From: Cellulomonas xylanilytica
Lineage (GTDB): Bacteria; Actinomycetota; Actinomycetes; Actinomycetales; Cellulomonadaceae
NCBI RefSeq assembly: GCF_007989805.1
Contig: NZ_BJUB01000007.1
Span: 62,001-126,000 of the forward strand
Direction of reading: 5' to 3'
DNA length: 64,000 nt
Shown piece after piece: positions 35,337-46,208 of the stretch. The stretch's first letter is position 1. Every line of letters begins with the position of its first letter. The notes below the pieces were generated by a model. The model was not told the origin of the DNA and did not search any database. It saw nothing but the letters and a program-made list of their open reading frames with translations. The position numbers and the translations under genes were made by a program.

Positions 35337-35741
35337 ATGACGATCTCACTCCAGTACACCAACATCACCGTCAGCGACGTCGACGAGGCGCTCGCCTTCT
35401 ACCGGGACGCCCTGGGCCTCGAGGTCCAGCAGGACGTGGCCTCCGGCGGCCACCGCTGGGTCACCCTCGGCAGCGACGCGCAGCCCGGGCTCGGCATCGT
35501 GCTGTCCGACCCGCATGCCGGTCGCTCGCAGGCCGACGGCGACGTCATGCAGGAGCTGCTCGCCAAGGGCGTCCTGCCGATGCTCGTCTTCTCGTCCGAC
35601 GACCTGGACGCCACCTTCGAGAAGGTGCAGGCATCGGGCGCCGAGGTCCTGCAGGAGCCGATGGACCAGGGCTGGGGCCCGCGCGACTGCGCGTTCCGGG
35701 ACCCGGCGGGGAACACCGTCCGCATCTCGCAGGCGTCCTAG
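35337..35741 (+). CDS. VOC-superfamily (glyoxalase/bleomycin-resistance-like) protein
   Basis: A 134-residue protein with paired beta-alpha-beta-beta-beta units of the vicinal oxygen chelate fold: YTNITVSDVDEALAFYRDALGLEVQQDV and MLVFSSDDLDATFEKVQASGAEVLQEPMDQGWGPRDCAFRDPAGNTVRISQ. The order and the DPAGN motif are typical of metal-binding or drug-binding members; the substrate is unknown. The start follows the TAGGGT box by seven bases. Its stop overlaps the convergent phosphatase stop by three to four bases. Confidence 0.9.
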   Translation: MTISLQYTNITVSDVDEALAFYRDALGLEVQQDVASGGHRWVTLGSDAQPGLGIVLSDPHAGRSQADGDVMQELLAKGVLPMLVFSSDDLDATFEKVQASGAEVLQEPMDQGWGPRDCAFRDPAGNTVRISQAS

Positions 35742-37438
35742 CCCTCACCGCCCGCCGGCAGGGAGAGCGGGCGGACGAGGACGAGGGCGACGTCGTCGCT
35801 CGCGTCCGACGGCACCATCGTCGCCAGCACGTCGTCGGCCAGGGCCTCCAGCGGCTGCGACTGGCGGCCCGCGAGCATGCCCACCAGCTGGTCGATGCCG
35901 GCGACGTGGGTGCGGGTGCGGTGCTCGATGAGGCCGTCGGTGTGCAGCAGCAGGATGTCCCCGACCTCCAGCACGGTCGTGTGGTCGATGCGCTCGCGTC
36001 CGGTCGTCACGCCGAGGATCAGGTCGTTGCGGCGGCGCAGGACCTCCACGGTGCCGTCCGCACGGACGACCACGGGCGGCGGGTGGCCGGCGTTGGACCA
36101 CTGCACGGTGTGCCGGCCGTCCAGGTCCGGGACGACGCTGGCCACCACGGCGCTCGCCGTCGCGCTCGGCCCGAGACCTAGACCGGCGATGGCGTCGTCG
36201 ACGCGCTCGAGGATGCGGCCCGGGGAGCCGTCGGTGTCGTAGGCGATGGCCCGGACCAGGCCTCGGACCTGACCCATCGCCGCGGCAGCCTCCAGGTCGT
36301 GCCCGACGACGTCGCCGATCACGACGGTCGTCGAGCCGTCCCGCGTGCGGAACGCGTCGTACCAGTCGCCCCCGATCGTGAGGTCGGCGGACGCGGGCTG
36401 GTAGCGCACGACGACCTCGACGCCGTCCGGCGCGGGCGGTGCGGTCAGCATCGCGTGCTGCAGCGCGAGCGACGCGTCCCGCGTCCGCTCCGCCTCGACC
36501 TCCGAGCGACGGGCGCGGTCCTGGAGGCTCTCCACCAGAGCGTGCTGGGAGGCGGCGGCCCGCACCGCGGCACCGACCGTCGACGCGAGCACCGTGAGGA
36601 ACGAGCGGTGCTCGGCGTCGAACGGCCGCAGCGGCGACCCCTGCAGGACGAGCACCCCGACCACGCCGTCGCGGTCGGTCCCGAGGAGCGGCGCGGCGAG
36701 CGTCGTCCCGTGGACCACCGTGGTCCGCCGCGTCACGACGTCGCGCAGGACGTGCTCGTCGACGATCTCCGCGGCCTCCTCCGACGTGCCGGCGAGCTGC
36801 TCCAGCCGGTCGTCCACGGTCAGGAAGAACGCGGCGCCGGCGACGTCGTGGCTGCGCGCCAGCACGTCGACCGCTGCCCGGGCGACGTCGTCGATGGTCT
36901 CCAGCTGCTGGGGCACGGCAACGTGCAGCGCGTCGATCGTCGCCAGGCGGCGGCGGTCCACCAGCTGGAGGGTGGTCTCCGTCGCGATGTCGAGCACGCC
37001 GCCCACGGTGCCGTCGTCGTCGAGCAGCGCGCTGTAGGAGAACGTGAACGTCGTCTCCTCGCTGAAGCCGGAGCGGTTGACCAGCAGGGGAGCGTCCTCG
37101 ACCCAGACGGCGTCACGCGTCTCCACCACGCGGTCGAACAGCGGGGCCAGCTCGTCCCACACCTCGGCCCACACCGTGCTCACCGGGGCGCCGAACGCGC
37201 CGCGCTGCTTCTCCGAGCCGAGCAGGCCGCGGTAGCCGTCGTTGTAGATCATGGTCAGCTCCGGGCCCCAGGCGATCATCACCGGGAAGCGGGTTCCGAA
37301 GCACATCCGGACCGCGTGGCGCAGCGACTGGGACCACGAGTCGGTCGGTCCGAGCGGCGTCGATCCCCACGCCACGGCCCTCGCGTCGGCAGCCACGGCA
37401 CTGCCTGCCGTCGCCTCCTCGAACCAGTCGGCGGTCAC
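35738..37438 (-). CDS. PAS-GAF-SpoIIE (PP2C-type) serine phosphatase
   Basis: A 566-residue RsbU-like protein phosphatase. Residues about 15-145 are a PAS-like sensor (WGSTPLGPTDSWSQSLRHAVRMCFGTRFPVMIAWGPELTMIYND), about 160-310 a GAF domain, about 320-560 a PP2C_SIG domain with metal-binding IGGDWYDAF, VVIGDVVGHDLEAAAAMGQVR, SNAGHPPPVVV and LLLHTDGLIE. Such proteins usually dephosphorylate anti-anti-sigma factors in stress signalling. GTG 37438 overlaps the stop of the sucrase/ferredoxin-like gene (GTGA), so it is the last gene of the four-gene operon that begins at 39826. Why a signalling phosphatase is coupled there is unclear. Confidence 0.9.
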   Translation of the reverse strand: MTADWFEEATAGSAVAADARAVAWGSTPLGPTDSWSQSLRHAVRMCFGTRFPVMIAWGPELTMIYNDGYRGLLGSEKQRGAFGAPVSTVWAEVWDELAPLFDRVVETRDAVWVEDAPLLVNRSGFSEETTFTFSYSALLDDDGTVGGVLDIATETTLQLVDRRRLATIDALHVAVPQQLETIDDVARAAVDVLARSHDVAGAAFFLTVDDRLEQLAGTSEEAAEIVDEHVLRDVVTRRTTVVHGTTLAAPLLGTDRDGVVGVLVLQGSPLRPFDAEHRSFLTVLASTVGAAVRAAASQHALVESLQDRARRSEVEAERTRDASLALQHAMLTAPPAPDGVEVVVRYQPASADLTIGGDWYDAFRTRDGSTTVVIGDVVGHDLEAAAAMGQVRGLVRAIAYDTDGSPGRILERVDDAIAGLGLGPSATASAVVASVVPDLDGRHTVQWSNAGHPPPVVVRADGTVEVLRRRNDLILGVTTGRERIDHTTVLEVGDILLLHTDGLIEHRTRTHVAGIDQLVGMLAGRQSQPLEALADDVLATMVPSDASDDVALVLVRPLSLPAGGEG

Positions 37439-38331
37439 GCGGGGACCGCCACGGGCGGGCGGTCGATGCCGGCGAGCGCCCACTGCCGTACCGGCAGCGG
37501 CTGGGTGGCGGTGCAGGTGGACAGCAGGGGTCCCGACGAGGTCTCGACGAGCCCGACCGTCACCGGACCGTCCGGCGCGTCGAGCCGGACCGACCAGCCG
37601 TCGTCGGTGCGCTCCTCGGCCAGCGGCGGGTACGCGTCGATGCGGTCGTCGCCCAGCTCGGCACGCGCGTAGTGCTGCGCGGCCTGCACCGGGTGCGAGC
37701 AGGAGCTGCGACCGCGCAGGAACCGGGGCACCACGCGGCCGGCGAGGTAGGCGTCGGCCACCTCGAGCGCGTCGCCGTCGTCGACCCAGCCGTAGTACAG
37801 GCCGTGCGGGAGCAGCACCATCGTGCCGGCGAAGCGGTCTCCGCCCAGGTGCGAGCACTCCCACGTCTCCTCGGGATACGCACCGGCCAGCCGCGCGGCG
37901 ACGCCCCGCCCGCGGACCGCGCAGCACCGGTCGTGGCGGCCGTGCGCGCACACGGCGAAGACCGGTCGGTCCGAGGGGGTACCCGTGGAGCCGTCGAGCG
38001 GCACGTCGAGCAGCTCGCGGGCCTCGTCGACGCGGCCCCACCGCACGGACTCACGCCCGGGCCGCGAGTCGACCAGCGCCCATCGCGTCCCGTCCTGCGC
38101 CCTCCGCCGCCCGGGGCGCCGGATGGCCAGCGGGCGGATCCCGGCTCGCTCCACCCGGTGCACCAGGGCGCGGCCGAGGGCGTGGTCGTACGGCGGGTCG
38201 AGCAGGGCGTGCCGACCCCACGCCGACTGGTTCTCGACCAGGAACCAGCGGTCGCCATGGGAGCCGGTCGCGACGAGCGGGTCCCCGCGGTCGCGGGCGC
38301 CGTCGCTGCAGGGCACCCACCCGTCGGTCAC
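37435..38331 (-). CDS. Sucrase/ferredoxin-like (thioredoxin-fold Fe-S) protein
   Basis: A 298-residue member of the Suc_Fer-like family. The family centre is VCAHGRHDRCCAVRGRGVA followed by ECSHLGGDRFAGTMVLLPHGLYYGWV; by homology to thioredoxin-like ferredoxins the Cys/His set could hold a [2Fe-2S] cluster. A Cys at the N terminus (WVPCSDGARDRG) matches the usual CS motif, and SSCSHPVQAAQHYAR is the conserved C-terminal region. It may donate electrons. GTG 38331 overlaps the oxygenase stop (GTGA), suggesting it serves the JmjC enzyme upstream or a shared process. Confidence 0.85.
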   Translation of the reverse strand: MTDGWVPCSDGARDRGDPLVATGSHGDRWFLVENQSAWGRHALLDPPYDHALGRALVHRVERAGIRPLAIRRPGRRRAQDGTRWALVDSRPGRESVRWGRVDEARELLDVPLDGSTGTPSDRPVFAVCAHGRHDRCCAVRGRGVAARLAGAYPEETWECSHLGGDRFAGTMVLLPHGLYYGWVDDGDALEVADAYLAGRVVPRFLRGRSSCSHPVQAAQHYARAELGDDRIDAYPPLAEERTDDGWSVRLDAPDGPVTVGLVETSSGPLLSTCTATQPLPVRQWALAGIDRPPVAVPA

Positions 38332-39581
38332 GGAGACGTCACCACCACGCCCTCGCGGAGCAGGCGCCGGACGACGACGAGCGCGCTGGCCAGGTCCAGC
38401 CCGGGCAGCGACCCGACGGTGACGGGGTCGCCGGTGCGGAGGGTCTCCAGGGCCGGCGCCGCCTCGACCGGGAGCGACAGCACGTTGCCGCGCGCGGTCA
38501 GCCGGACGCGGTCGCCGGCCGTCTCCACCCGGCCGCCGTAGCCGCTGCGCCACCGGACCTCGGTGCTCTCGGTCAGTGCGGTGATCGCGCTCAGGGTGGC
38601 CAGCGGCGCGACGGGTTCCGGACGGGTGTCGCGGCCGAACCGGGCGCCGAGGCGTCGGGCGGTGCGGTCCGCCGGGTCCTGCTCGGAGGTGAGGGCCGCG
38701 ACGAGGTCGGCCACCGTCTGCTCGACGATCGGGCGTAGCTGGTCCGGGTCGCTCACGTCGATGCCCATCGGCAGCGACGCCCGCAACGGGGCCGAGTCGC
38801 CGACCAGGCCGAGCAGCGTGTCCACCACGTCGGCGCGCGTGTACGCCGAGAGCCCGACCGTCAGGTGGATGGACGTGTCGCCGAGCGCGGTCGCGGAGTG
38901 GATCCAGCCGCGCGGCAGGTACAGGGCGTCGCCGGGACGCAGGACCTGGTCGACGACCGGTGTGCCACGGCCCGCCTCGGCGACCGCGGCGCGGTGGTCG
39001 GTCCACACCTGGTCCTTGAGCGGGTCCGGGTGCACGGGCGCGTGGATGACCCAGTGCTTCTCGCCGGACACCTGCAGGACGAACACGTCGTGGGTGTCGT
39101 AGTGGGGCGAGAAGCCCTGCGACGAGGGTGGGGTGACGTACGCGTTGACCTGGGCGGGATGACCCAGCTCCTCGACCAGCTGCCGCGTGAAGTCGACCAG
39201 GGGTGGCCACATCCGGTGCAGGCCCTGCAGCACGATCGTGGCGCCCGCCGCGAACTCCGCCAGCACCTTGTCGCTCGACACCTGGTCGGAGACCTCGGCG
39301 CCGAACCCGCCGGACGCGGTGAACCGGTCCGGGGCCAGCACGGAGCCCTCGTGGGCCAGCCGGACGAACGGGGTGCGCAGGGCGCGCCGGCCGACGAGCT
39401 CGTCGACGGCGGCGGGGGAGAACAGGTCGGTGAAGTCGTCGTTGGCCGGGGAGAGCAGGGCCGCGCGGCCCCAGAACTCGTCGGCGAAACGCTCGGCGGG
39501 GACGCCGATGCAGCGGGAGAGCGCGGACCGCAGGACCGGTCCGCGCACTCGCTCCTGCCGCCTCAGGGCGGGCTCCGGCAC
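38328..39581 (-). CDS. JmjC/cupin_4 2-oxoglutarate oxygenase, candidate peptide hydroxylase
   Basis: A 417-residue protein of the ribosomal-oxygenase type JmjC family (YcfD, NO66, MINA53). The cupin core is VNAYVTPPSSQGFSPHYD; iron ligands are His160, Asp162 (HYD) and distal His228 in YLPRGWIHSATAL. VLQVSGEKHWVIH and a C-terminal winged-helix-like region follow. Family members hydroxylate Arg or His in ribosomal proteins. GTG 39581 is chosen because it shares a base with the TAG stop of the tiny repeat gene upstream (TAGTG), which makes the two tightly coupled; the repeat protein, with three His, may be its substrate. A housekeeping ribosomal target remains possible. Confidence 0.86.
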   Translation of the reverse strand: MPEPALRRQERVRGPVLRSALSRCIGVPAERFADEFWGRAALLSPANDDFTDLFSPAAVDELVGRRALRTPFVRLAHEGSVLAPDRFTASGGFGAEVSDQVSSDKVLAEFAAGATIVLQGLHRMWPPLVDFTRQLVEELGHPAQVNAYVTPPSSQGFSPHYDTHDVFVLQVSGEKHWVIHAPVHPDPLKDQVWTDHRAAVAEAGRGTPVVDQVLRPGDALYLPRGWIHSATALGDTSIHLTVGLSAYTRADVVDTLLGLVGDSAPLRASLPMGIDVSDPDQLRPIVEQTVADLVAALTSEQDPADRTARRLGARFGRDTRPEPVAPLATLSAITALTESTEVRWRSGYGGRVETAGDRVRLTARGNVLSLPVEAAPALETLRTGDPVTVGSLPGLDLASALVVVRRLLREGVVVTSP

Positions 39582-39826
39582 TACGCCGAGCCGTCCGCCC
39601 CGCCGTCGTGACCGTCGGCGTTCGCTCCGCCGTCGGCGGGCCCCTCGCCCGCGGACCCGTCCGCTCCGCCGTCGTGCCCGCCGGGGTTGGCGCCGCCGTC
39701 CGCGGGACCCTCGCCGGCCGAGCCGTCGGCGCCGCCGTCGTGGCCGCCCGGGTTCGCACCGCCGTCCGCCACGCCTTCGCCCTCGGGTGCCGGCTCGCTG
39801 GTGATGTCGTCGTCGTTGATGCTCAT
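39581..39826 (-). CDS. Repeat peptide of Gly/Asp/His units, possible modified-peptide precursor
   Basis: An 81-residue protein: an acidic 15-residue start (MSINDDDITSEPAPE) and three 22-residue repeats, each GEG(V/P)ADGGAN(P/A), then (G/D)GHDGGADGSA. There is no Cys, Lys or aromatic residue, and one His per repeat. GGGAGGG precedes ATG 39826 by about five bases. The stop TAG overlaps the oxygenase start. The repeats differ at many third codon positions but hardly in protein sequence, so the peptide itself is selected. No family recognised. It could be a ribosomally made peptide modified by the JmjC oxygenase, or a flexible structural protein. Confidence 0.75.
   Translation of the reverse strand: MSINDDDITSEPAPEGEGVADGGANPGGHDGGADGSAGEGPADGGANPGGHDGGADGSAGEGPADGGANADGHDGGADGSA
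39584..39781 (-). repeat. Three tandem 66-base coding repeats
   Basis: Units at 39716-39781, 39650-39715 and 39584-39649, read on the minus strand, encode three 22-residue repeats. Units one and two differ in 11 codons silently and in one codon with amino-acid change (Val/Pro). The third has Ala-Asp in place of Pro-Gly. The divergence argues against a recent slippage product. Confidence 0.85.
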
Positions 39827-39916
39827 GGACCCTCCCTCGTCTCGCAGCCGTGCGGCGGCGTCGCCGCCTTCGCGAGCGTATGCGCTTGACGAGCGAGGCG
39901 CCCCAGGAGCATTGTT

Positions 39917-39951: not shown

Positions 39952-40296
39952 GTGGATCCGCTGAGCGCGACGTTCGCCGCACTCGCCGACCCGACGCGCC
40001 GGGCCATCCTCGGCCGGCTGGCCGACGGCGAGGCGACGGTGACCGAGCTGGCGGAGCCGTTCGACATGACGACGCAGGCCGTCTCCAAGCACCTGCGGGT
40101 GCTCGAGGAGGCGGGCCTGATCACCCGGGGCAGGCGCGCGCAGTGGCGGCCGAGCCGCCTCCGCGAGGACGCGCTGGACGACGCCACCGACTGGCTCGAG
40201 CACCACCGGGCGGCGTTCCGGCAACGGTTCGACGCCCTGGACCGCGAGATCGCCGCGCTGCGCAAGGACGAGGAGAACGACCGTGGGAAGCACTGA
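39952..40296 (+). CDS. ArsR-family transcriptional repressor
   Basis: A 114-residue winged-helix repressor of the type found with SRPBCC genes: FAALADPTRRAILGRLADGEATVTELAEPFDMTTQAVSKHLRVLEEAGLI, then WLEHHRAAFRQRFDALDREI. No metal-binding Cys motif. GTG 39952 is the start, five bases after the second operator half. The next gene starts inside its 3' end (14-base overlap), so ArsR and two SRPBCC genes form one operon controlled through the tandem operators at 39917-39947. Confidence 0.92.
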   Translation: MDPLSATFAALADPTRRAILGRLADGEATVTELAEPFDMTTQAVSKHLRVLEEAGLITRGRRAQWRPSRLREDALDDATDWLEHHRAAFRQRFDALDREIAALRKDEENDRGKH

Positions 40297-40756
40297 GCTG
40301 ATCGTCGAGCCGGGGCGGCAGGACGTCGTCGTCGTGCACGAGTTCGACGCACCGCCCGAGGTCGCGTTCCGGGCCTACACGGACCCGGGGCTGATGCCGC
40401 GCTGGAAGGGGGCGGAGCGGTTCACCGTCGTGGTCGACGAGCACGACCTGCGCGTCGGCGGTCGGTGGCGGCTCGTGATGACCCGCACCGACGGCGTCGA
40501 GTACCCGATGCGCGGCGTCTTCCACGAGGTCAGCGCGCCGCACCGGCTCGTGTCCACGTACGAGTTCGAGGCGGGCGGCCCCGGCGCCCTGCAGCTGGTG
40601 GTCGAGAGCTTCGAGCCCACGCCGACGGGGTGCCGCCTGACGTCGGTGTCGCTGTTCGCCTCCGTCGAGGACCGCGACCGCTGGGTGCCGTCCGGCGGGC
40701 TGGAGTCCGGGACGCGCGCGACCATGGCCCTGCTCGACGAGCTGGTGCCGTCATGA
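40283..40756 (+). CDS. SRPBCC (AHSA1-like) protein
   Basis: A 157-residue SRPBCC-fold protein: VVVVHEFDAPPEVAFRAYTDPGLMPRWKG, VGGRWRLVMTRTDGVEYPMRGVFHEVSAPHRLVSTYEFE, and a C-terminal helix TRATMALLDELV. It binds an unknown hydrophobic ligand. The GTG at 40283 lies within the ArsR gene, and its stop overlaps the next SRPBCC start (ATGA). Two SRPBCC proteins in one operon could bind different ligands or act together. Confidence 0.9.
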   Translation: MGSTELIVEPGRQDVVVVHEFDAPPEVAFRAYTDPGLMPRWKGAERFTVVVDEHDLRVGGRWRLVMTRTDGVEYPMRGVFHEVSAPHRLVSTYEFEAGGPGALQLVVESFEPTPTGCRLTSVSLFASVEDRDRWVPSGGLESGTRATMALLDELVPS

Positions 40757-41202
40757 CCGACCTCGAGGTGCAGCGGGCGTTCGACGCGCCCGCGAGTGCC
40801 CTGTGGGCGGCCTGGACCGAGTCCGACGTCGTGCGCACGTGGTGGGGACCGCAGGGGTTCACATGCCCGGTCGCGCGGATGGACGTCCGGGTGGGTGGGG
40901 TCTCGCTCGTCGCGATGCGGACGCCCGACGAGGTCGACCTCTGGAGCACCTGGACGTACACCTGTGTCGACGACGGCGAGCGGCTCGAGTTCCTCCACGG
41001 GTTCAGCGACGCCGACGGCGGCTCCTACGACCCGCAGGACCTCGGGTTCCCGCCCGGCATCCCCCGCGTGGTGCCCCACGTCGTCACCGTGCGCGACGGC
41101 CTGATGACCGTGGTCGAGCGCGGGTACGCGGACGCGCAGACTGCCGAGCTGTCGCGGCTCGGGCTGGAGTCCTCGCTGGACAAGCTGGCCGCGACCTTCT
41201 GA
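40753..41202 (+). CDS. SRPBCC (AHSA1-like) protein
   Basis: A 149-residue SRPBCC-fold protein: VQRAFDAPASALWAAWTESDVVRTWWGPQGFTC and VRVGGVSLVAMRTPDEVDLWSTWTYT, with a C-terminal helix SRLGLESSLDKLAATF. It is the third gene of the ArsR operon. The ligand is unknown. ATG 40753 overlaps the previous stop. It ends 14 bases before the convergent DUF4287 gene. Confidence 0.9.
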   Translation: MTDLEVQRAFDAPASALWAAWTESDVVRTWWGPQGFTCPVARMDVRVGGVSLVAMRTPDEVDLWSTWTYTCVDDGERLEFLHGFSDADGGSYDPQDLGFPPGIPRVVPHVVTVRDGLMTVVERGYADAQTAELSRLGLESSLDKLAATF

Positions 41203-41744: not shown

Positions 41745-44700
41745 ATGAGAACTCGGTTGAAGCGCGCGATCGTGGCCGGTGCCACCGTCGCGCTCGTCGC
41801 GCCCCTGGGCATCGCGCTCGTGGCACACGGAGCGGCCGCCGCCCCGGTGCTGCTCTCCGCGGGCAAGCCCGCCACCGCCAGCAGCTCGAACCAGACCTAC
41901 GTCGCCGGCAACGTGACCGACGGCAACCAGGCCACCTACTGGGAGTCGGTCAACAACGCGTTCCCGCAGTGGGTCCAGGTCGACCTCGGCGCAGCGGCGA
42001 CCGTCACCGACGTCACGCTGAAGATCCCCGGCGGCTGGGGCGCCCGCTCCGAGACCGTCACGCTGCAGGGCTCCACCGACGGGTCCGGCTTCACGACGCT
42101 CGAGGCGTCCGCGTCCTACGCGTTCACCGGCGGCAACGCGGTCTCCGTCGACGTGACCGACACCAGCGTCCGCTACGTGCGCGCCGCCGTCAGCGCCAAC
42201 ACCGGGTGGCCCGCCGCGCAGCTGTCCGATGTGGAGGTCTACGGGACCTCGTCGACCCCGCCGGTGGACCCGCCGCAGGGCAGCAACCTCGCCCAGGGCC
42301 GCCCGATCACGGCGACCTCCGTCCAGCAGACCTACGTGGCCGGCAACGCGGTCGACGGCTCCACCGCGACCTACTGGGAGGGCGCGCCGGGCGCGTACCC
42401 GTCGAACCTCACGGTCTCCCTGGCCGCGGCGTCCACGCTCACCGGGGTCGTCGTCAAGCTCAACCCCGACCCCGCGTGGGGCGGCCGGACCCAGACGTTC
42501 GCCGTCGAGGGCCGCACCGGCAGCGGCTCGTGGAGCACCCTCAAGGCGTCCGCGGCCCATCCGTTCAGACCGTCGTCGGGGAACACGGTGACCGTCCCGG
42601 TCAGCGGCACCGCGACCGACGTCCGGCTCGTGTTCACCGCGAACACCGGCTCCTCCAACGCGCAGGTGGCCGAGCTCCAGGTGATCGGCAGCACCACGCC
42701 GGTGCCCACGAGCCCCGACCTCCAGGTGGCCCTCACCACGAACCCGATCGCAGTCACCCCGACCACGCCGATCTCCGTCGGCGCCACCGTCCGCAACTCC
42801 GGCACCGCCGCCTCGGCCGCCACCACCGCGGTCGTCGCGCTCGGCGGCACCAACGTCGGCACCGCGACCGTCCCGGCGCTCGCGGCCGGCGCGCAGACCA
42901 CGATCACCGTGAACGCGGGCACCCGCGCCACCGGCACCTACCCGCTCACGGTCACCGTCGACCCGGCCAACACCGTCGCCGAGTCGAACGAGACCAACAA
43001 CGCGGCGTCCGGCTCGGTCGTCGTGTCCTCCGGGCCCGAGCCCACGCTCGCGGACCTGCAGGTGAGCCTGACCGGCACGTCGCCCGCGAGCCCGACCCCC
43101 ACCGACGCCGTCACGGTCACCGGGACGGCCCGCAACACCGGCACCGCCGCGGCCGCGGCGACGACGGTCGCGCTCACCCTGAACGGCACCGCCGTGGGCA
43201 CGGCGAACGTCGGCGCGCTGGCGGCCGGTGCGCAGCACGACGTGTCCGTCAGCATCGGCACCCGGGCCGCCGGGACCTACGCGCTCGTCGCGACGATCGA
43301 CCCCGCCGGGTCCGTCGCCGAGGCGAACGAGAGCAACAACACCGCCACGGCGTCCCTGGTCGTCGCGACCACCCCCGGCACCGGCACCGACCTGGCCGCA
43401 GGCCGCCCGGCGACCGCGTCCTCGACCGAGTTCTCGTTCGTCGCGGGCAACGCGGTCGACGCCGACCCGAGCACGTACTGGGAGGGTGCCGGCGGCGCCT
43501 ACCCCAGCTGGCTCGCGGTGAACCTGGCGTCGCAGTCGACGCTCCAGCAGGTGGTCGTCGGGGTGCCGCCGGCCGCCGCGTGGGGTGCGCGGACGCAGAC
43601 GTTCTCGATCGAGGGGCGCGTCGGCACCGGGGCGTGGTCGTCGCTGAAGGCCTCGGCCGCCTACGCGTTCGCACCGGGGTCGGGCAACAGGGTGGCCGTC
43701 CCGGTCAGCGGGTCGGCCACCGACGTGCGGCTCGTGTTCACCGGCAACACCGGCGCGGGCAACGGGCAGGTCTCGGTGCTCCAGGTGATCGGCCTGCCCG
43801 CACCCAACCCGGACCTGACCGTCACCGCGGTCACGGCCACCCCCGCGTCACCCGTCGAGACCGCGGCGATCACCCTCGCGGCAACCGTGCGCAACGCCGG
43901 CAACCTGGCGTCGGCGGCCACCACCGTCGACCTCACGGTGGACGGCGCCAAGGTGGGGAGCGCGAACGTCCCGGCGGTCGCGGCCGGGCAGTCGACCACC
44001 GTGTCGGCATCGATCGGCACCCGCCCCGCCGGCTCGTACACGATCGGCGGGGTCGTCGACCCCGCCGGCACCGTGGTCGAGCAGAACGAGGCGAACAACG
44101 GCTACAGCAACCCGACCAAGGTCGTGGTGACCGAGGCGCCCGGCCCGGACCTGCAGGTCCTCGCCATCGCGTCGAACCCGGCCAACCCGGCCGTCGGCTC
44201 GACCGTCTCGTTCACGGTCACCGTGAAGAACCGCGGGTCGCAGTCGGCGGGCGCGTCCACGACGCGGCTCGTCGTCGGCAGCGCGACCCTGACCGGGTCG
44301 ACGGGCGCGCTCGTCGCCGGCGCCACCGCGACCGTCCCGTTGAACGGCACGTGGACCGCCGCCACCGGCGGCGCCACGCTGACCGCCACGGCCGACGCGA
44401 CGAACGCCGTCGCCGAGACCAACGAGACCAACAACACGCTCGCGCAGTCCATCGTGGTCGGGCGCGGGGCCGCGGTCCCGTACACGTCCTACGAGGCCGA
44501 GGCGGGGACCTACACGGGCACGCTGGTCGAGGCCGACGCGCTGCGGACGTTCGGGCACACCAACTTCGGGACCGAGTCGTCGGGCCGCAAGTCGGTGCGC
44601 CTCACCAGCCAGGGCCAGTACGTGCAGCTCACGTCGACCAACGCCACCAACTCGATCGTGATCCGGAGCTCGATCCCGGACGCGGCCGGCGGCGGCGGTC

Positions 44701-46208
44701 AGGACGCGACGATCAGCCTCTACGCCAACGGCACGTTCGTGCAGAAGGTGACACTGAGCTCGCGGCACAGCTGGCTGTACGGGACCACCGACCAGCCGGA
44801 GGGCCTGACGAACACCCCGGGTGGGGACGCCCGGCGGCTGTTCGACGAGTCCCACGCGATGCTCGCCCAGTCCTACCCGGCGGGCACGGTGTTCCGGCTG
44901 CAGCGCGACGCCGGTGACACGGCGGCGTTCTACGTCATCGACCTGGTCGACCTCGAGCAGGTGGCGCCGCCGCTGTCCAAGCCGGCGGAGTGCACGTCGA
45001 TCACTGCGTACGGCGCCGTGCCCAACGACGGGCTCGACGACACCACCGCCATCCAGGCGGCCGTCACGGCCGACCAGAACGGCCAGATCAGCTGCGTCTG
45101 GATCCCGGCCGGGCAGTGGCGGCAGGAGAAGAAGATCCTCACCGACGACCCGCTGAACCGCGGGATGTACAACCAGGTGGGCATCTCGGACGTGACGATC
45201 CGCGGGGCCGGCATGTGGCACTCGCAGCTCTACACGCTGACGGAGCCGCAGGACGCGAACACCCTCAACCACCCGCACGAGGGCAACTTCGGGTTCGACA
45301 TCGACAAGAACACCCAGATCTCCGACATCGCCATCTTCGGCTCCGGCCGGATCCGCGGCGGCGACGGGAACGACGAGGGCGGTGTCGGGCTCAACGGCCG
45401 GTTCGGCACGGGCACGAAGATCAGCAACGTGTGGATCGAGCACGCCAACGTCGGTGTGTGGGTCGGCCGGGACTACGACAACGTCCCCGAGCTCTGGGGG
45501 CCCGCCGACGGGCTCGACCTCTCGGGCATGCGGATCCGCAACACCTACGCCGACGGGATCAACTTCTCCAACGGCACCCGGAACTCGCGGGTGTTCAACT
45601 CGTCGTTCCGCACCACCGGGGACGACGCGCTGGCCATCTGGGCCAACCCGTATGTGAAGGACCGGACCGTCGACAACGCCCACGACAACCACTTCGTGAA
45701 CAACACGATCCAGCTGCCGTGGCGCGCCAACGGGATCGCGATCTACGGCGGCTCCAACCAGTCGATCGAGAACAACCTCGTCTACGACACGATGAACTAC
45801 CCGGGCATCATGCTGGCGACCGACCACAGCCCGCTGCCCTTCGGCGGGACCACGCTGATCGCCAACAACGGGCTCTACCGGACCGGCGGGGCGTTCTGGA
45901 ACGAGGACCAGGAGTTCGGGGCCATCACGATCTTCCCGAGCACCCTGGACATCCCGGGCGTCACCATCCGGGACACCGACATCGACGACTCCACCTACGA
46001 CGGCATCCAGCTCAAGAACGGCGGCGGCGTCGTGCCGGACGTCCGGATCACGAACGTGCGGATCACGAACTCCCGCAACGGTGCCGGCATCCTGGCGATG
46101 AGCGGCATCCGCGGCAACGCGATCCTGTCGAACGTGACGATGTCGGGGAACGCGACCGGCAACGTGGTCACCCAGCCGGGCAGCCAGTTCGTCATCACGG
46201 GCAGCTGA
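41745..46208 (+). CDS. Secreted GH87-type alpha-glucanase with discoidin and CARDB modules
   Basis: A 1487-residue exported enzyme. Signal peptide 1-33 (ending AAAAP); discoidin/F5-8C modules at about 34-166, 179-322 and 547-687; CARDB Ig-like modules at about 323-435, 436-546, 688-799 and 800-910; a CBM6/35-like module at about 913-1080; then a right-handed beta-helix from 1086 (ITAYGAVPNDGLDDTTAIQAAV). In the helix, Asp1270 (ADGIN), Asp1293 and Asp1294 (GDDAL) reproduce the three-Asp site of GH87 alpha-1,3-glucanases/mycodextranases, including the 23-residue spacing. It probably cuts alpha-1,3-glucan of fungal walls or mixed alpha-glucans. The binding modules hold it on the polymer. It ends at a strong hairpin. 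Confidence 0.88.
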   Translation: MRTRLKRAIVAGATVALVAPLGIALVAHGAAAAPVLLSAGKPATASSSNQTYVAGNVTDGNQATYWESVNNAFPQWVQVDLGAAATVTDVTLKIPGGWGARSETVTLQGSTDGSGFTTLEASASYAFTGGNAVSVDVTDTSVRYVRAAVSANTGWPAAQLSDVEVYGTSSTPPVDPPQGSNLAQGRPITATSVQQTYVAGNAVDGSTATYWEGAPGAYPSNLTVSLAAASTLTGVVVKLNPDPAWGGRTQTFAVEGRTGSGSWSTLKASAAHPFRPSSGNTVTVPVSGTATDVRLVFTANTGSSNAQVAELQVIGSTTPVPTSPDLQVALTTNPIAVTPTTPISVGATVRNSGTAASAATTAVVALGGTNVGTATVPALAAGAQTTITVNAGTRATGTYPLTVTVDPANTVAESNETNNAASGSVVVSSGPEPTLADLQVSLTGTSPASPTPTDAVTVTGTARNTGTAAAAATTVALTLNGTAVGTANVGALAAGAQHDVSVSIGTRAAGTYALVATIDPAGSVAEANESNNTATASLVVATTPGTGTDLAAGRPATASSTEFSFVAGNAVDADPSTYWEGAGGAYPSWLAVNLASQSTLQQVVVGVPPAAAWGARTQTFSIEGRVGTGAWSSLKASAAYAFAPGSGNRVAVPVSGSATDVRLVFTGNTGAGNGQVSVLQVIGLPAPNPDLTVTAVTATPASPVETAAITLAATVRNAGNLASAATTVDLTVDGAKVGSANVPAVAAGQSTTVSASIGTRPAGSYTIGGVVDPAGTVVEQNEANNGYSNPTKVVVTEAPGPDLQVLAIASNPANPAVGSTVSFTVTVKNRGSQSAGASTTRLVVGSATLTGSTGALVAGATATVPLNGTWTAATGGATLTATADATNAVAETNETNNTLAQSIVVGRGAAVPYTSYEAEAGTYTGTLVEADALRTFGHTNFGTESSGRKSVRLTSQGQYVQLTSTNATNSIVIRSSIPDAAGGGGQDATISLYANGTFVQKVTLSSRHSWLYGTTDQPEGLTNTPGGDARRLFDESHAMLAQSYPAGTVFRLQRDAGDTAAFYVIDLVDLEQVAPPLSKPAECTSITAYGAVPNDGLDDTTAIQAAVTADQNGQISCVWIPAGQWRQEKKILTDDPLNRGMYNQVGISDVTIRGAGMWHSQLYTLTEPQDANTLNHPHEGNFGFDIDKNTQISDIAIFGSGRIRGGDGNDEGGVGLNGRFGTGTKISNVWIEHANVGVWVGRDYDNVPELWGPADGLDLSGMRIRNTYADGINFSNGTRNSRVFNSSFRTTGDDALAIWANPYVKDRTVDNAHDNHFVNNTIQLPWRANGIAIYGGSNQSIENNLVYDTMNYPGIMLATDHSPLPFGGTTLIANNGLYRTGGAFWNEDQEFGAITIFPSTLDIPGVTIRDTDIDDSTYDGIQLKNGGGVVPDVRITNVRITNSRNGAGILAMSGIRGNAILSNVTMSGNATGNVVTQPGSQFVITGS

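Follow-up and report, generated by a model that had tools for sequence, protein, structure and literature searches.

A repeat peptide, a JmjC oxygenase, and a ferredoxin-like protein form a conserved actinobacterial cassette resembling a leader-guided peptide modification system

We analyzed a stretch of 64,000 nucleotides from Cellulomonas xylanilytica (contig NZ_BJUB01000007.1, positions 62,001 to 126,000; hereafter the window), in which three overlapping genes on the minus strand encode a short repeat peptide, a JmjC protein, and a sucrase/ferredoxin-like (Suc_Fer-like) protein (table 1). An earlier reading of this DNA made from the letters alone (the sequence-only reading) had described the peptide/JmjC pair, which is present, and had overlooked the third gene, which is conserved. 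Re-reading of the sequence bore out the 81-residue peptide and its overlap with the JmjC gene: the peptide open reading frame (ORF) runs from an ATG at 39826 to 39584 and ends in a TAG (39583-39581), whose G is the first base of the GTG start of the JmjC gene (TAGTG). The JmjC frame extends from this GTG (39581-39579) to a TGA (38330-38328), which overlaps the GTG of the third gene (38331) as GTGA.

The peptide consists of an acidic leader and three units of 18 residues, ADGGAN(PG/PG/AD)GHDGGADGSA, each with a single His (residues 29, 51, and 73). Tandem Repeats Finder detected the repeat in the gene with a period of 66, 2.8 copies, and 84% matches. Three Gly/Asp/His repeats with one His each had been noted from the letters, and an acidic leader preceding a repeated core had been predicted; both hold in the window, and the leader is conserved across relatives. 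Comparison of 11 Cellulomonas sequences (55 pairs) gave 0.043 nonsynonymous (pN) and 0.341 synonymous (pS) differences per site, with a dN/dS ratio of 0.097. The peptide ORF evolves as a coding sequence under strong constraint, and a short encoded precursor, as in ribosomally synthesized and post-translationally modified peptide (RiPP) systems, is therefore present. NCBIfam contains no family matching any of the three window proteins at E 1, nor two other peptides and three of four JmjC relatives (the fourth gave two matches far below the cut-off), and curated libraries gave no name to any of the three peptides tried.

The second protein belongs to the JmjC_2 family (PF08007, E-value 8.6e-30). 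Its fold resembles that of NO66 and MINA53 most closely, and by sequence, too, its best matches hydroxylate His; the architecture of ribosomal oxygenases (JmjC, dimerization, and winged-helix domains) is present in full. The HxDxHD motif is kept in all 187 enzymes of the two clades described below, and the metal triad H161, D163, and H229 in 176 of 176 aligned rows (query numbering, which counts one extra N-terminal codon in the window protein, so that the true residue is the number minus 1). One sequence, L199, is probably no true relative; its catalytic residues do not align. In the winged-helix domain, three strands (352-356, 359-364, and 367-372) are followed by a helix (373-383), a three-residue helix (390-392), and a last helix (398-410), all in query numbering. 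This is the order, three strands and then three helices, given for the RiPP recognition element (RRE) in PMC12710340. Extra strands flank the RRE-like core on both sides (342-345 and 414-416). In an AlphaFold model of a fused peptide and enzyme from a Gordonia homolog, the first ten-residue block has a predicted local distance difference test (pLDDT) score of 95; the core is disordered, and the model therefore says nothing on which residue is oxidized. Asp396, Arg406, and Glu410 of the enzyme are conserved. In one subclade, loss of the leader coincides with a change in the winged-helix domain.

The third protein matches PF06999 (E-value 3.2e-15; 57.1 bits, cut-off 34.9). A yeast sucrase/ferredoxin-like relative binds [2Fe-2S] and has the motif CX8CXnHX3H (PMC8482512). 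The cassette protein shares its family and the CX8C motif with the Apd1/Aim32 thioredoxin-like ferredoxins; in contrast to the HX3H pair of Aim32, its last position is Asp, and CX8C together with HxGGD is found in 77 of 77 aligned relatives. Judged by these motifs, it is at most a divergent subgroup of thioredoxin-like ferredoxins and a putative cluster binder.

Table 1. Positions of the cassette genes and their parts in the window.
Feature	Positions	Strand	Basis
Repeat peptide gene, 81 amino acids, stop included	39581..39826	-	Sequence; dN/dS 0.097; homologs found
Acidic leader MSINDDDITS, residues 1-10	39797..39826	-	Conserved motif; pLDDT 95 in fused model, Gordonia homolog
Repeat unit 1, residues 20-37	39716..39769	-	Sequence; Tandem Repeats Finder
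Repeat unit 2, residues 42-59	39650..39703	-	Sequence; Tandem Repeats Finder
Repeat unit 3, residues 64-81	39584..39637	-	Sequence; Tandem Repeats Finder
Shine-Dalgarno-like AGGGAGGG, upstream of peptide ATG	39830..39837	-	Sequence
JmjC_2 (PF08007) protein, predicted Fe(II)/2-oxoglutarate oxygenase, 417 amino acids, stop included	38328..39581	-	
C-terminal winged-helix domain of JmjC protein, approximately residues 341-417, strands then helices (RRE-like order)	38331..38561	-	Secondary structure; conserved Arg/Glu signature
Suc_Fer-like protein (PF06999), 298 amino acids, stop included, CX8C and HxGGD	37435..38331	-	Pfam, motifs

We analyzed the distribution of the cassette in related genomes. 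In Cellulomonas, the peptide and the JmjC gene were each detected in 15 of 81 genomes, and the two sets are identical. Among named genomes, 136 JmjC loci were found, of which the best 80 were used: the repeat peptide lies directly upstream of the enzyme in 79, the remaining locus starts 38 bases before the enzyme, and most of the 80, not all, show a stop-start overlap (TAGTG, TGATG, GTGA, or TTGA). JmjC relatives were also found in 59 of 396 genomes across the phylum (Actinomycetota) and in 131 of 394 genomes of the class; some genomes are shared between the two samples, and distant JmjC proteins are counted in each. The resulting 219 loci (80 named, 58 from the phylum sample, and 81 from the class sample, whose weaker rows were taken partly) are not all independent, L030 and L218 being identical; L001-L017 and L098-L159 lie outside the counts, and L088, labeled Cyanobacteriota in the tree, is assigned to Rhodococcus in its record.

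A quick tree of 217 enzymes separated two clades, A and B, from most other JmjC proteins, and a careful tree of 83 rows gave support of 100/99 for clade A and 98/96 for clade B. A short acidic ORF of small residues, as defined by a detector set after the sequences were seen, lies upstream of the enzyme in 132 of 136 clade-A loci, 46 of 51 clade-B loci, and 1 of 32 loci of other JmjC proteins; of 709 ORFs taken from this DNA as controls, 1 matched. The two clades together thus have it directly upstream in 178 of 187 loci, the misses including L077, whose peptide escaped the detector; upstream DNA was short at L095, L162, L167, and L190 (82 bases or less) and at L277 (322 bases). A candidate modifying enzyme therefore adjoins the precursor gene, as in RiPP systems, and the coupling proposed by the sequence-only reading is real and phylum-wide, the orthologous enzymes being far from mostly devoid of the peptide gene. 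The third gene, counted with a profile built partly from the same loci, is near 116 of 136 clade-A, 46 of 51 clade-B, and 1 of 32 other JmjC loci (162 of 187 in both clades). Twenty loci, several of them from Rhodococcus, have the peptide and no third gene in the DNA fetched around the locus. One locus with both peptide and third gene (L267) was placed among the other JmjC rows in the quick tree. No neighbor outside the cassette recurs in more than 10 of the 80 named loci, and the survey of neighbors at the loci revealed no conserved protease, exporter, or regulator. The presence counts in both clades indicate that it is the cassette, rather than the core sequence, that evolution has kept. At L173, whose repeat peptide was recognized by the first detection rule and not by the second, a leader-like start (ITDNDIT) precedes a quite different core containing PTEDDENLDAPGEHSQDTGDE twice, beside a distant JmjC relative.

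Two features are constant among the relatives: a leader that is acidic, although one subclade has lost it, and Asp in a setting of small residues. In the more distant relatives, another short gene occupies the site of the peptide gene; it keeps the leader (e.g., LTDEDIRTT and LSDDDMTTV), followed by Asp-rich repeats such as DGDATDADGTDG. In 200 peptides from loci and database homologs, His precedes DGGADG in 434 of 487 detected A-type units, the other residues at this position being Gln, Arg, Asn, Ser, Ala, Thr, Val, or Lys. Thirteen of the 200 lack this His in every detected unit (one, P0045, has it in a unit missed by the pattern); among the His-free database peptides, gene neighbors are known only for L194, which carries Gln in its units. 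Most of the His-free loci were contributed by the wider sample, where 13 of 132 clade-A cores lack His from the first DGGA on (L235, L237, and L239 have one before it, and L265 and L266 were judged from the last 60 residues only), as do 38 of 46 clade-B cores in their last 60 residues. The clade-A core of L244 contains Asp, Gly, and Ala only, in a long run of the unit ADGG, and its enzyme keeps HxDxHD. His-free cores beside enzymes with an intact motif show that His is dispensable and led us to reject it as the general target; the earlier suggestion that His is the residue that matters is accordingly not upheld. Among B-type cores, the 35 unique ones in the first sample have only Ala, Asp, Gly, and Thr in common. 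Asp is nearly always followed by Gly in A-type cores and mostly by Ala, Gly, Ser, or Thr in B-type cores. Since it is the sole functional side chain common to both types, we infer that Asp is the target of modification.

The best reading of these data, which we hold to be moderately probable, is the leader-guided, iterative hydroxylation of Asp residues in a RiPP-like peptide by the three-gene cassette. The short gene would provide the precursor, with the acidic leader MSINDDDIT and a repeated, disordered core in which Asp is set among Gly, Ala, Ser, and Thr. The JmjC enzyme, with its ribosomal-oxygenase fold, would grip the leader, most likely through the C-terminal winged-helix (RRE-like) domain, and move along the core to hydroxylate the side chains of several Asp residues, C3 being the most likely position. 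The third protein, which resembles ferredoxins, is a conserved partner; it may provide electrons or iron, or else catalyze a second step. What results would be a peptide that is acidic, rich in hydroxy-Asp, and probably able to bind metal. It may stay inside the cell, given that the cassette has no conserved exporter or protease gene as a neighbor. FIH, a hydroxylase of the JmjC fold, has been reported to act on asparaginyl, aspartyl, and histidinyl residues (PMC9994133), so Asp hydroxylation is chemically compatible with this fold.

Other explanations have to be weighed against leader-guided Asp hydroxylation. Like NO66 and MINA53, which modify ribosomal proteins in this way, the enzyme could instead hydroxylate C3 of the one His found in every GGHDGG unit; its best matches are His hydroxylases, and the residue occurs in most A-type units, in each of the 77 unique A-type cores that the first sample contains, and in every unit of the window peptide. 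However, the 13 peptides, 38 clade-B cores, and 13 clade-A cores without it, together with the D, G, and A core of L244, make this unlikely. It might also be argued that the peptide is not a substrate, being a metal-loading or regulatory partner, held by its leader, which delivers or buffers iron for the JmjC and ferredoxin-like proteins. An acidic, disordered peptide with two partners from metalloprotein families would suit such a role, as would the [2Fe-2S] cluster reported for a relative of the PF06999 type (PMC8482512) and the lack of a conserved exporter or protease beside the cassette. On the other hand, substrates are usually laid out in this manner, with a repeated core and a distinct conserved leader encoded next to a protein hydroxylase, and it is not obvious why a mere chaperone should require a leader that is set off from a core varying so freely; we think this role rather improbable. 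That the enzyme is an ordinary ribosomal oxygenase with an unrelated acidic neighbor is highly improbable: the full ribosomal-oxygenase architecture would fit, but the peptide is upstream in 178 of 187 clade loci as compared with 1 of 32 for other JmjC proteins and a background of 1 in 709 control ORFs, while in the 80 named loci each non-cassette neighbor recurs in at most 10. The operon layout suggests that a ribosomal protein is not the substrate.

Several points weigh against the Asp hydroxylation model. His is present in the great majority of A-type units and in every unique A-type core of the first sample, and MINA53 and NO66 have been called highly selective for His (PMC9994133). Conservation of Asp could reflect metal binding or solubility rather than chemistry. 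The alignment behind the fused model contains only nine rows with a peptide, no decoy was folded, and the position of the leader is not visible in it. Leader loss together with domain change is one evolutionary event only, and among the 149 rows flagged as having a leader, the Glu is missing in 4 and the Asp in 17; these flags are crude, as L161, L174, L209, L212, and L233 are flagged without a leader despite having one, and L247 is flagged with one. The cassette has no conserved protease, exporter, or regulator next to it, unlike many RiPP clusters. Three loci (L183, L196, and L260) retain the enzyme without a recognizable repeat peptide and all lack the third gene in the fetched DNA; L183 sits inside clade B in both trees, and L196 has an acidic but nonrepetitive ORF upstream. 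The cassette behaves like a RiPP system and is a candidate member of that class.

L196 and L260 belong to one genus, in which the JmjC gene has neither a repeat peptide nor a Suc_Fer-like gene nearby. The system may have decayed there or switched its substrate.

We compared the cassette with known systems. NO66 (RIOX1) and MINA53 (RIOX2) act on His of the ribosomal proteins Rpl8 and Rpl27a (PMC9994133, PMC6006756), whereas here the proposed substrate is a dedicated repeat peptide from the operon of the enzyme, and His is often absent from it. Hydroxylases of the JmjC type that act on RiPP precursors have been described. BipG/BpmG (JmjC) and PbsQ (cupin-like) hydroxylate the precursors of biphenomycin-type RiPPs, and BipG is an ornithine hydroxylase (PMC12707348, PMC12257519; BipG, PMC12707348). 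Both systems place an enzyme of the JmjC/cupin fold beside a ribosomal precursor peptide, with hydroxylation reported there and predicted here; however, theirs has ornithine as the target, within a core that is short and aromatic, and includes many further enzymes along with a protease and a transporter, whereas the present cassette has Asp repeats, one oxygenase, and one ferredoxin-like protein. A short repeated core is also found in TvgA/TvgB, where TVGG repeats become a poly-cyclopropylglycine peptide (PMC9062424, PMC11002830). One enzyme modifies that core repeatedly, as we propose here, but by radical S-adenosylmethionine chemistry on Val, and transporter genes are present. A 2025 paper states in one sentence that the closest bacterial homologs of PF08007-RRE fusions lie in RiPP-like contexts (PMC12710340). 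The Pfam family is the same; the text consulted says nothing of a precursor, core, leader motif, or third gene for these fusions. Apart from this printed hint, no paper describing the Asp-repeat cassette was found in the literature searched, which mostly excluded subscription journals and is no proof of absence. The cassette looks like an undescribed type of leader-guided modified peptide.

With one clade-B enzyme as the query, at least 3,320 proteins matched at E < 1e-20 (8,000 candidates scored), probably including other JmjC proteins; among the 120 matches listed, many have been named automatically, for example as NO66 demethylase or cupin. If the model is true, a large set of proteins of this kind would be peptide-modifying enzymes with a co-encoded substrate, Asp-rich repeat polymers would join the known core types, and a simple hydroxylase for repetitive peptides would be available. 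Its chemistry could be tested at once, as two genes would suffice, with the ADGG-only core of L244 as the simplest substrate. A link between leader recognition and the winged helix of ribosomal oxygenases would follow as well. More tentatively, the data may point to a phylum-wide class in which encoded poly(hydroxy-Asp) repeats, down to (Ala-Asp-Gly-Gly)n, are modified by JmjC enzymes whose winged-helix RRE binds the leader, with a ferredoxin-like partner, to give an intracellular metal-binding polymer; in that case, the winged helix of the eukaryotic hydroxylases NO66 and MINA53 might have a common origin with a domain that binds peptide leaders.

Some additional observations were made. No PADLOC family matched the three window proteins at E 0.01, and the idea of a defense system was dropped on that account. 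One peptide homolog is named "BatC protein" in its source; a literature search on that name yielded no paper. The JmjC protein matches 146 plasmid records, all below 60% identity; the 15 matches listed are approximately 32% identical and come from Streptomyces. In the window, the GTG at 37438 of a minus-strand gene (35738-37438) overlaps the stop of the Suc_Fer-like gene, and the operon may extend in this strain. We take this gene to encode a PAS/GAF-SpoIIE-phosphatase-like protein, a type not among the widely recurring neighbors of the cassette in the 80 named loci. On the plus strand, a divergent gene group (39952-41202), presumably an ArsR-like regulator and two SRPBCC-like proteins, begins 126 bases from the peptide start. 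Further along the same strand (41745-46208) is an ORF of 1487 residues, which, judged by eye, has repeated discoidin-like and CARDB-like segments and a beta-helix-like end.
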